Source: Chloroflexota bacterium
GTDB taxonomy: Bacteria > Chloroflexota > Dehalococcoidia > Lucifugimonadales > UBA3495
Length of the DNA stretch: 64,000 bases
Assembly: GCA_009840135.1 (NCBI GenBank)
Contig: VXOH01000020.1
Location: forward strand, 1-64,000
Reading direction: 5' to 3'
Every line of letters begins with the position of its first letter. The stretch's first letter is position 1. Below the pieces are notes generated by a model that saw only the letters and a list, made by a program, of their open reading frames with translations, ran no database searches and had not been told where the DNA came from. The translations under genes and the position numbers were made by a program. Shown here one piece after another: positions 5,989-11,525 of the stretch.

Positions 5989-6028
5989 TAGACGCGGAGT
6001 AAACAGGTAAGGCTCCGCGTCTATTTGT
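5989..6028 (+). terminator. hairpin/terminator after the LLM oxidoreductase
   Basis: TAGACGCGGAG...CTCCGCGTCTA then TTTGTG; a second hairpin AATGCCTGC...GCAGGCATT (5947-5980) spans the stop codon. Confidence 0.55.
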
Positions 6029-6065
6029 GCATCCACTGACATATTCTCTTGTGAGGAAAACGAAC

Positions 6066-6578
6066 TTGCGCGCATCAATGGATGCTCCGGCTCCCCGCCT
6101 TGCCGCTCTTCCCATCTCCATGTTCGTATGCGCCCTCAGCGTCGCCACGGCCATCGTCGGCGCCCTGGGCCCCTGGGCAAGGGTGCCCACCTACCAGGCC
6201 AGCTACGGAGATGTCGCTGCCGGAGAGGGGGTCTTCTGGGTTACGGGGACCGAAGCGCCCGGCATGGTCCCTATATTTGGGGATGGGATGGTGGTCCTGG
6301 TCATGGTATCCCTGGCCGGGGCGCTCATATTGTGGCGAATGGTGAAGCCGCCCAGGTCCAGCGGATTTATCCTGTCCGGCATCCTTTGCCTGCTGCTGCT
6401 GTCGGCGGTTATTGCTACGGTTAATTGGGCCTACCCAGGCTATATTCCCCAAGCCGACTCCCGCACCTATTTCAAGCCCAGCGTGGAAGTGAGCTGGGGA
6501 CTGGTCGTCATGTGCCTGGGACTGTGGCCGGGCGTGTTGGCTGCAGCCTACCAGCTGTGGGCCGACGAACTCCGCTGA
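6066..6578 (+). CDS. hypothetical polytopic membrane protein
   Basis: About 4 hydrophobic segments; possible TTG start at 6066 with GAGGA upstream (ORF track uses GTG at 6027). Confidence 0.6.
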   Translation: MRASMDAPAPRLAALPISMFVCALSVATAIVGALGPWARVPTYQASYGDVAAGEGVFWVTGTEAPGMVPIFGDGMVVLVMVSLAGALILWRMVKPPRSSGFILSGILCLLLLSAVIATVNWAYPGYIPQADSRTYFKPSVEVSWGLVVMCLGLWPGVLAAAYQLWADELR

Positions 6579-8699: not shown

Positions 8700-9302
8700 T
8701 CCTACACCTCAAGCTATTGGTGCGAGGACGGGCTCCAGCCGGCCAGGGGAAGGCTTCTTCGACGCCGCCATGCCCTCGTTCTTCGGGCCAACAAAAGTGA
8801 ACCCTTGGAGACCGGCGGCTTCTCCCATAGAATCTAGGCCAATATATGCCAAAGGCCGTTTAGTGTCAACGAATGAGCCTTGCCGTCGGGACGCAATAAA
8901 CCGGTCGAAAATCGAGGAAACCGCCAGGGAAACTTTCCTGCCCCTCATGTTGCCTCGGCGGGTAGCTGAGCCAACCAAAGCCCGTCCTCTCTCGCCGCGA
9001 CCGCGAGATTACTCCCGACAAAAACGTCGGAAATTGCTCCGCAACAGTGTGACAAGCACGCCTGAACATAATGTAAGATAAGGCCAGTTGCGAAGGAAAC
9101 TTCACACCCCGTTTTCTAGCTATCCGGCAATTGGACTCAATATGGTGTACGTGTTACAATCGGGTGTGTTAATGTAAAGGATATTATGTATGGTTATAGA
9201 ATCCATCGCACAGCGCGAGTCCTGAGCAATATAGATTGGCCGGGCGGCTTTTGATTGCCCTGCTGTTGGGAAAATCTTTTGGTTAAGGAGTAGGAGTTTG
9301 CC

Positions 9303-10565
9303 ATGAAGTTAGTTGTTGTTGGGACGGGTCAAGGCGGGTCCAATATTGCTGACGAATTCGTAGCCTTGGGGCAGTGGGTGTGGACTAACCGAAGGGTGAG
9401 GATATTTACCGGTACGGAGTCAGACCCCATAGCCAAGGGTGTTTTCGCGGTTAACCTGGGCGCCGGCGACCTTTACGGTCTGGAGCACATTCCCCAAACG
9501 GATGACCATACGATTTTGCTCGGCACCACCGACGAGTTCCGGGGGCGGGGCGCGGGCAAGGTCAATGCCGATGGCGCCGAACAGTCCCGTCGGGACTCCC
9601 GCAAGATAGTATCCACTATTCGGGACCACGGTGATGTCTATACCGCGGATGCCATTATGGTTATCGCCACCACCGCCGGAGGCACCGGTTCCGGCTCCGT
9701 GGGCGTCATCGTTGACCTGCTCAAGGAAGAGTTCAAAAAGCCCGTTTACGCCATGCTGGTTTTGCCCTTTGAGAACCAGTACGACGAGCCGGACAGCGTC
9801 ATCAACACCGCCACCTGCCTCAAGAAGGTTATCGAGAACTCCAAGGCCGATGCGGTGTTCCTGGTGGACAACCAGAAGTTCGCCCGCAAGCAGGATGCCA
9901 TGGGCGTCAACTTTGCCACCATAAATCGCAAAATCGCCGATTCCTTCATGGACATCCTTTGCGTCGGTGAAGAGACCGATCGCCGCTTCATCGGCGAGGT
10001 GCTGGACGCCAACGACGTAATCCGCATACTCAAAGGGCCTACCGTCATCGGCGTCAGCCATGTCGCGGTTCCCACGTCCAAGAAGACCAAGTCCCTGTTT
10101 GGCCGCCTGCGGGGTCCGGACCGGGCCCAGCAGCATTTCTCCGTATCCAAGGCTCAGATAGAGCGTGCCCAGAACGTGGTCACCCAGGCACTGTCCGAAC
10201 TTTCCTTGGACTGCGAGTACGTAGAAGAGGGGAGGGCCCTCTACGATGCCCAGCATGTTTTGGGCCTGTTCAGCGGCCCGGCGGGTGAGGCTACGGAAGA
10301 AATCGTCGAAATGATGGACAATACCTTTGCGGAGCTGGTTCCCGGGGCCGGTCGGCGCAAGGGCACCTATCCGGGCCGCACTTCCGATACCATCAGCGTG
10401 ACCGCCATCGTAGCCAACATCGGTGAAGGTAAGGCCATGGACCGTATCGAGTGGTTCTACCGTGAAGCCGCCAACATGATGAATACCTCCAAGGACCGCC
10501 GGGAGGGCCGGGGAAGGCGCTGGGAAGACATCTCCAAGCTGTCCGACGTGCTGCCGAATCTGTAG
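9303..10565 (+). CDS. divergent FtsZ/tubulin-superfamily GTPase
   Basis: N-terminal GTGQGGSNIAD, GRGAGKVNADG, tubulin signature TAGGTGSGS, VLPFENQYDE, ADAVFLVDNQKF, and a T7-like VLDANDV with two Asp. Confidence 0.85.
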   Translation: MKLVVVGTGQGGSNIADEFVALGQWVWTNRRVRIFTGTESDPIAKGVFAVNLGAGDLYGLEHIPQTDDHTILLGTTDEFRGRGAGKVNADGAEQSRRDSRKIVSTIRDHGDVYTADAIMVIATTAGGTGSGSVGVIVDLLKEEFKKPVYAMLVLPFENQYDEPDSVINTATCLKKVIENSKADAVFLVDNQKFARKQDAMGVNFATINRKIADSFMDILCVGEETDRRFIGEVLDANDVIRILKGPTVIGVSHVAVPTSKKTKSLFGRLRGPDRAQQHFSVSKAQIERAQNVVTQALSELSLDCEYVEEGRALYDAQHVLGLFSGPAGEATEEIVEMMDNTFAELVPGAGRRKGTYPGRTSDTISVTAIVANIGEGKAMDRIEWFYREAANMMNTSKDRREGRGRRWEDISKLSDVLPNL

Positions 10566-10645: not shown

Positions 10646-11458
10646 TTGAGAGTCTCGAGAGCGCCGGAGTTCCGCAACGGCTCCGGTTCCCCAATTATCC
10701 TTATCCTGGTTTTTCTCGCCGTATTGATTGTAGGAGGAGTGGTAATTTATCTGCTGTTGGGCAGTAATGTTGGTTCCTCTTCCGAGCCTCCTCCGGCCAT
10801 ACCCACGGCTCCCGTCGCTCCGCAGCCATTGCCCACCCTGCCGGCGCAGGTGCCGCCTCCAGTACCGCAGGTTGACCCTGTCCCCACGCCCGCCGCTCAG
10901 GTGACCACCTATCCCAAGCCGGAGGTTATATTCGGCGAGGTCCTGTCCGAGGGCTTTGTGGACCTCGAGTTGCTCACCGGGCGCGTTCGCACTTTCTTCA
11001 CCTTCCAGGTGGATACCAGCACCCAGAATATTGTCCTTTTCTTCGGCCTTTACGAGGGTACCGGCCAGGCCATCAGCCGCTCAATCGTGGTTGAGGACTA
11101 CAGCCAGTCGGAATTGATAGACAACGCTGAACTTACCGTCTATTACCCCGATGCCCCTCCTACGGTAATCAGGTTTGACCGGGAACCGGGCACGGTGGTC
11201 TCCAGCCAGTTCTACACCACCCAGCCCTTCGACCCCGGCCTTTTCTCCCCGCAAATGAGGATTGCGCTCATCCGGCAGAATCTGCTGCTTCAGAATGCCG
11301 ATTCCAGTATCATTGCCGATATGCAGCTTGATCCCTCCGGGGTTTCCACCCTTTCGGGATACAGGGTAACCAGGAACGATCCGGTTACTACCGAGGCCGC
11401 CCTGACCGAAATCCAGGCCATAATTGACCAGCTGGAGAGCCGACGGCCCCGTTCCTGA
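10646..11458 (+). CDS. single-pass membrane protein with Pro-rich linker and extracytoplasmic domain, adjacent to the FtsZ-like gene
   Basis: GGAGG 5 nt before TTG (10646); TM IILILVFLAVLIVGGVVIYLLLG; PPPAIPTAPVAPQPLPTLPAQVPPPVPQVDPVPTP; no terminator seen between the two genes. Confidence 0.65.
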   Translation: MRVSRAPEFRNGSGSPIILILVFLAVLIVGGVVIYLLLGSNVGSSSEPPPAIPTAPVAPQPLPTLPAQVPPPVPQVDPVPTPAAQVTTYPKPEVIFGEVLSEGFVDLELLTGRVRTFFTFQVDTSTQNIVLFFGLYEGTGQAISRSIVVEDYSQSELIDNAELTVYYPDAPPTVIRFDREPGTVVSSQFYTTQPFDPGLFSPQMRIALIRQNLLLQNADSSIIADMQLDPSGVSTLSGYRVTRNDPVTTEAALTEIQAIIDQLESRRPRS

Positions 11459-11491: not shown

Positions 11492-11525
11492 GACGCCGCC
11501 CCGAACGGGGCGGCGTCATTTTTCG
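11492..11525 (+). terminator. strong intrinsic terminator after the FtsZ-like/membrane-protein pair
   Basis: GACGCCGCCCC-GAAC-GGGGCGGCGTC followed by ATTTTTC. Confidence 0.9.

Follow-up and report, generated by a model that had tools for sequence, protein, structure and literature searches.

Is the tubulin-like GTPase encoded at 9303-10565 of the window (the whole 64,000-nucleotide stretch of a Chloroflexota contig that was analyzed) a division FtsZ, or does it belong to another branch of the superfamily? The first-pass annotation, made from the sequence alone, had read it as a specialized cytoskeletal GTPase. The gene is a real open reading frame under strong purifying selection, and the motifs cited for that reading were all located in the translation: the glycine loop GTGQGGSNIAD at residues 7-17, the GGTGSG signature within TAGGTGSGS at residues 124-132, and the T7-like VLDANDV at residues 233-239. 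The ortholog alignment shows AGGTGSG, D235, and N51 to be invariant. The gene and its parts are the following.

9303..10565, plus strand: CetZ-like tubulin-superfamily GTPase gene, 420 aa, ATG start; dN/dS 0.036-0.058 against four near relatives
9285..9302, plus strand: ribosome-binding site AAGGAGTAGGAG of the CetZ-like gene, read from the sequence
9309..9884, plus strand: Tubulin/FtsZ GTPase domain, residues 3-194 (Pfam PF00091, 77.4 bits, cut-off 33)
9675..9695, plus strand: tubulin signature AGGTGSG, residues 125-131, invariant in 14 orthologs
9900..10469, plus strand: CetZ-type C-terminal domain, residues 200-389 (Pfam PF21011, 41.5 bits, cut-off 21.6)
9999..10016, plus strand: T7 synergy loop VLDAND, residues 233-238, from alignment; D235 and D238 are putative catalytic acids

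Profile searches matched the Tubulin family (2.3e-21) and CetZ_C (PF21011, 1.3e-10) above their cut-offs, Pfam returned no FtsZ_C domain in the 420-aa protein, and the scores for the FtsZ equivalog TIGR00065 (31.6 bits, cut-off 295.2) and for FtsZl-1/Tubulin_2 (PF13809; 19 bits, cut-off 27) were below threshold. In a control at E<=0.001 across 14 genomes, PF21011 matched only in Haloferax volcanii. The top PDB sequence matches were CetZ1 (4b46, 8.6e-23), CetZ2, and the Methanosaeta CetZ. A model of the protein was built from 14 sequences, all close orthologs, and had a mean pLDDT of 54.7, with the best blocks (70-84) in parts of the GTPase domain only; Foldseek recovered the tubulin fold from this model, whose C-terminal half is of low confidence, with a probability of 1.00 to CetZ, FtsZ, and tubulin, and ranked CetZ1, the Methanosaeta CetZ, and CetZ2, the three CetZ proteins with solved structures, first, above tubulins and FtsZ. 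Apart from the CetZ-like gene, the source genome (3.45 Mb, 190 contigs, 93% complete) gave a single match to the tubulin family, and this is a canonical ftsZ that lies directly beside ftsA on another contig. Neither ftsA nor dcw genes are found near the CetZ-like gene, in agreement with its description as lying outside a division cluster, and the transport and pantothenate neighbors that had been named are OppB/OppC-type permeases and PanB. A small multi-transmembrane protein of no family, encoded at 6027-6578 of the window, is also kept near the CetZ-like gene in loci L003, L004, L005, and L007. Two outcomes had been named in advance as contrary to the annotation, namely a place within the FtsZ clade in a genome lacking a second ftsZ or a structure without the tubulin fold, and neither was observed. 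We conclude that the 420-aa protein is a specialized GTPase of the tubulin family, distinct from the division FtsZ. The first-pass annotation did not name CetZ and overlooked the strictly linked membrane-protein gene that follows.

The phylogeny supports the same separation. The careful tree comprised 73 rows with FtsZ as outgroup and omitted two very long branches (L084 and L086); the trees took their reference CetZ from haloarchaea only and contained neither TubZ nor tubulins. The FtsZ clade (100/100) took in the genome's own FtsZ and left out the CetZ-like protein, which formed a clade of its own with its orthologs (100/100). The protein also fell outside the canonical CetZ clade (100/100), which united haloarchaeal and ten Chloroflexota sequences. 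The CetZ-like clade was sister to canonical CetZ with support of just 84/86, and alternatives to this position were not rejected, among them a grouping with the Dehalococcoidia proteins (p-AU 0.19). Grouping with haloarchaeal CetZ alone was rejected in the AU test. The AU test also did not reject an arrangement that put the CetZ-like protein and FtsZ together on the same side of a branch; the tree being unrooted, this means only that the protein may have branched off first among the CetZ-like sequences. At 23 positions that we derived ourselves as separating haloarchaeal CetZ from FtsZ, the protein carries the CetZ residue at 10, the FtsZ residue at 2, and neither at 11, whereas the genome's own FtsZ carries the CetZ residue at 0 and the FtsZ residue at 22. 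Because the protein lies outside the canonical clade and its sister position is supported at that level only, we label it CetZ-like and not strict CetZ; the best description is of a divergent CetZ-like protein from a bacterium, paired with a membrane partner of its own. The two omitted sequences, L086:871-2451 (527 aa) and L084:964-2142 (393 aa), are very divergent tubulin-superfamily proteins of the same order that carry neither FtsZ_C nor CetZ_C.

The T7 loop had attracted attention because its Asn is replaced by Val while both Asp residues are kept. The alignment bears out this reading, with VLDAND here corresponding to NLDFAD in Bacillus subtilis FtsZ and to VVDSSE in CetZ1. The substitution is not special to this protein, however, as Asn occupies the first T7 position in 0/10 haloarchaeal sequences, 0/10 canonical Chloroflexota sequences, 0/15 orthologs, and 0/34 Dehalococcoidia paralogs. 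The Val at T7 is thus no sign of a special activity. D235 is present in all 15 orthologs and D238 in 14, the L006 ortholog having D238A, and the second T7 acid is Asp in the CetZ-like clade versus Glu in 10/10 haloarchaeal sequences. The statement that no FtsZ-type C-terminal peptide is present was upheld in part: an FtsZ-type end is absent, but the orthologs have in common a short conserved LPN/LPD end, and many Dehalococcoidia relatives terminate in IPSLL or a similar sequence.

Orthologs of the CetZ-like protein are 72-94% identical to it. A scan of genome contigs yielded 15 relatives with a best-segment identity of 72-93%, 14 of them from Dehalococcoidia, SAR202, or Chloroflexota MAGs and one (L017) on a contig fragment filed under Neomarinimicrobiota. 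The host is bacterial, with the orthologs residing in Chloroflexota MAGs and the neighborhood conserved among the near ones; panB belongs to this conserved neighborhood in several relatives. Full-length orthologs are patchy (5 of the 147 genomes of the order), and none was found in the sampled genomes of a sister genus (g338). Proteins approximately 40% identical to the CetZ-like protein occur in the wider class at up to three copies per genome, and PF21011 is matched in 67 of 294 class genomes. Genome G678, from the window's family, has a different CetZ of the canonical type (L083, CetZ_C 87.6 bits), so that two or more types of CetZ gene exist in this family.

Directly downstream of the CetZ-like gene lies a second gene, with these features.

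10646..11458, plus strand: partner gene encoding a single-pass membrane protein of 270 aa, TTG start at 10646 (the listed open reading frame runs from 10634)
10646..10690, plus strand: conserved N-terminal tail of the partner, M-R-x-S-R-x-P-E-x-R-G-G, predicted cytoplasmic; R5, E8, and R10 invariant in 13 sequences
10691..10765, plus strand: transmembrane helix of the partner, residues 16-40 (hydrophobic stretch in the alignment; helix H16-40 in the model)
10766..10918, plus strand: Pro-rich spacer of the partner, variable in length in the alignment and of low pLDDT
10919..11455, plus strand: beta-rich domain and C-terminal helix of the partner, predicted extracytoplasmic, pLDDT mostly 85-95
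11492..11517, plus strand: terminator-like hairpin 3' of the partner gene, 11-bp stem with 10 G-C pairs

The partner gene is directly downstream of the CetZ-like gene in 13 of the 13 orthologous loci with sequence there, and it is kept at L010, L011, L012, L014, L015, and L016 although all other tested window genes differ at those loci. Among the 147 genomes of the order, full-length matches to the partner occur in exactly the 5 that bear the ortholog, always adjacent to it; the remaining matches scored 18-27 bits and for the most part fell on membrane segments or Pro-rich parts of longer proteins. We found no earlier description of this pairing or of the partner gene itself in the open-access literature. 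The alignment of the partner resolves a short N-terminal tail, a transmembrane helix, the variable Pro-rich spacer, and a conserved outer domain, and its model reaches a pLDDT of about 85-95 over most of residues 97-190 and 240-266. No Pfam family was matched above cut-off by the protein, and no PDB fold was matched by the domain at E<=0.001. Positive charges precede the helix, and the N-terminal tail is therefore predicted to face the cytoplasm. The partner evolves faster than the CetZ-like gene (dN/dS 0.14-0.26). Its TTG start is preceded by GGAGG and follows the CetZ-like gene after a gap of 80 bp. Terminator-like hairpins are no more numerous in the region than expected by chance, and the one at 11492..11517 is well placed. 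The two genes are probably co-transcribed, although the 80-bp gap and the hairpins found within the gap in three close relatives make this less than certain. These gap hairpins, strong, G+C-rich, and with a T run after them, are at L004:7292-7318, L005:7290-7321, and L006:2404-2432 and could represent partial terminators that set the ratio of the two proteins. As a candidate conserved RNA element the gap hairpin was rejected, being strong in L004-L006 but not so in the window, L003, L010, and L015.

The envelope genes of the host provide the setting for this gene pair. Neither FtsW/RodA nor SepF was found in the source genome, and a search of it for MreB gave two matches only, to FtsA and to a DnaK-length frame, so that MreB is treated as absent. 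FtsW/RodA is present in 135 of the 294 class genomes and is missing from 66 of the 67 with CetZ_C, the exception being G492 with one FtsW/RodA match; the Fisher p value for this exclusion (4e-20) is inflated and confounded by shared ancestry. Loss of the dcw cluster and of peptidoglycan, with walls of the S-layer type, is described for SAR202 and Dehalococcoidales (PMC10608941, PMC11994032). In Haloferax, CetZ1 is required for rod shape and motility and apparently has no direct role in division (PMC9856176). Archaellin-family genes (PF01917) occur in 53 of the 294 class genomes, several of which have FtsW/RodA, and there are none in the source genome. A link of CetZ_C to the archaellum was rejected, archaellins being present in 10/67 CetZ_C genomes versus 43/227 others (p=0.59).

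We favor, with moderate confidence, a model in which the CetZ-like protein forms a GTP-dependent filament that is tethered to the membrane by its partner and organizes the shape or envelope of wall-less, S-layer cells apart from FtsZ-driven division. Membership of the family suggests that the protein is cytoskeletal, that is, that it assembles into filaments. It would bind GTP and polymerize head to tail, and hydrolysis would take place at the subunit interfaces, where the T7 loop of one subunit (D235 and D238) would meet the nucleotide of the next. The cytoplasmic N-terminal tail of the partner, about 15 residues long, may bind the filament and make the partner a membrane tether, with its Pro-rich spacer and outer domain extending toward the S-layer-type envelope. 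Such a filament could organize cell form or envelope in the absence of peptidoglycan machinery. A broader proposal, that a CetZ-type cytoskeleton coupled to the S-layer by a dedicated adaptor replaces MreB and peptidoglycan in shaping wall-less Chloroflexota, with different lineages having recruited different envelope proteins, is put forward only tentatively. As sister genera manage without the CetZ-like gene, it does not generally substitute for the wall.

The pair might instead act in division, the CetZ-like protein being a second division protein beside FtsZ (compare FtsZ1 and FtsZ2 of archaea) and the partner a divisome anchor in place of SepF. A genome that is missing SepF could need an extra membrane anchor, two FtsZ proteins are common among wall-less archaea (PMC9856176), and the short conserved LPN/LPD or IPSLL end could serve as an interaction peptide. 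We nevertheless regard a division role as rather unlikely, as the C-terminal domain is of the CetZ type with FtsZ_C missing, the protein is outside the FtsZ clade, its gene is far from ftsA and the dcw genes in a genome where ftsZ already adjoins ftsA, and division proceeds without it in most genomes of the order. Also unlikely is that the protein, instead of forming a shape cytoskeleton, acts as a scaffold, specific to its lineage, for a surface structure or for secretion or transport, with the outer domain of the partner positioning a surface complex. Pilus, archaellum, and transporter genes do not consistently accompany the pair, its other neighbors vary, and archaellins show no association in the class by the counts given above; what speaks for such a scaffold is that other bacterial CetZ groups adjoin different membrane or exported proteins (two-transmembrane downstream, exported repeat upstream) and that archaeal CetZ neighborhoods include type IV pilus genes (PMC9856176). 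A DNA-positioning filament of the TubZ/PhuZ kind, derived from a plasmid or phage, is highly improbable despite weak sequence matches to phage and plasmid TubZ structures (8e-6 and 6e-5), since CetZ structures score far higher, the CetZ_C domain is present, the neighborhood with panB is conserved in several relatives, and plasmid matches are haloarchaeal only. The neighbors in the window are metabolic and transport genes.

According to Brown and Duggin in 2023, CetZ is found only in archaea (PMC9856176). CetZ-like proteins of Dehalococcoidia received a one-sentence mention in the same year by Santana-Molina et al. (PMC9871819), and no other treatment of CetZ in Chloroflexi, Chloroflexota, or Dehalococcoidia was found in the open-access literature, subscription papers and preprints being outside the scope of the search. 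At this locus a CetZ-type gene, accompanied by an identifiable candidate membrane partner, occurs in bacteria that resemble many archaea in having an S-layer wall and lacking peptidoglycan. The strictly paired two-gene unit offers a small, testable system for the action of CetZ on the envelope, and the results are grounds for revising the annotation of many "FtsZ" paralogs in Dehalococcoidia. DET0589 and DET0636 of Dehalococcoides, annotated as FtsZ (PMC5102406), are probably members of this paralog group.

Haloarchaeal CetZ (CetZ1 and CetZ2 of Haloferax volcanii, 4b46 and 4b45, and a plasmid CetZ) has in common with the CetZ-like protein the Tubulin GTPase and CetZ_C domains, Q10 in the first glycine loop, N208, the GE pair at 222-223, a T7 loop without Asn, and a conserved RxGxxP. 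The two are 23-29% identical and differ in their hosts, archaeal versus bacterial, and the CetZ-like protein further differs in having additional insertions around residues 37-46 and 315-321, its own clade, and a dedicated membrane partner. The Dehalococcoidia CetZ-like paralogs are, by identity (about 33-41%), its nearest relatives outside its own clade, with the same domains, residence in genomes without FtsW, and a C-terminus of the IPSLL type. They differ in often being present at 2-3 copies per genome and in having GAPDH, coiled-coil, or exported proteins as neighbors, and the partner protein of the window was not seen beside them. Some are in tandem pairs (L030:274-2655 and L066:174-2583, one L066 copy being a long branch), which suggests that the copies diverged once duplicated or that the filament has two components. 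In one Dehalococcoidia group (f8/f9/f15), an exported repeat protein that terminates in a transmembrane helix and a short, basic, cytoplasmic tail is encoded directly upstream of the CetZ-like gene; the loci are L031, L034, L035, L062, L067, L070, L073, L078, and perhaps L027. Canonical Chloroflexota CetZ (L039, L049-L060, L083) resembles the window protein in its CetZ_C domain and its bacterial hosts of the same class but groups with haloarchaeal CetZ at 100/100, scores about 180-296 bits against CetZ1 for complete copies compared with 87 for the window protein, and in most cases is followed by a small two-transmembrane protein. The gene for the latter, of 68-82 aa, lies directly after or overlaps the CetZ gene at L039, L049, L051, L053, L054, L056, and L057, in several Chloroflexota families. 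These recurrent envelope-protein neighbors of bacterial CetZ groups would fit a membrane-linked role. The genome's own FtsZ (L001) is like the CetZ-like protein in belonging to the tubulin superfamily and differs from it in being encoded beside ftsA, falling within the FtsZ clade, and carrying the FtsZ residue at 22 of the 23 discriminating positions.
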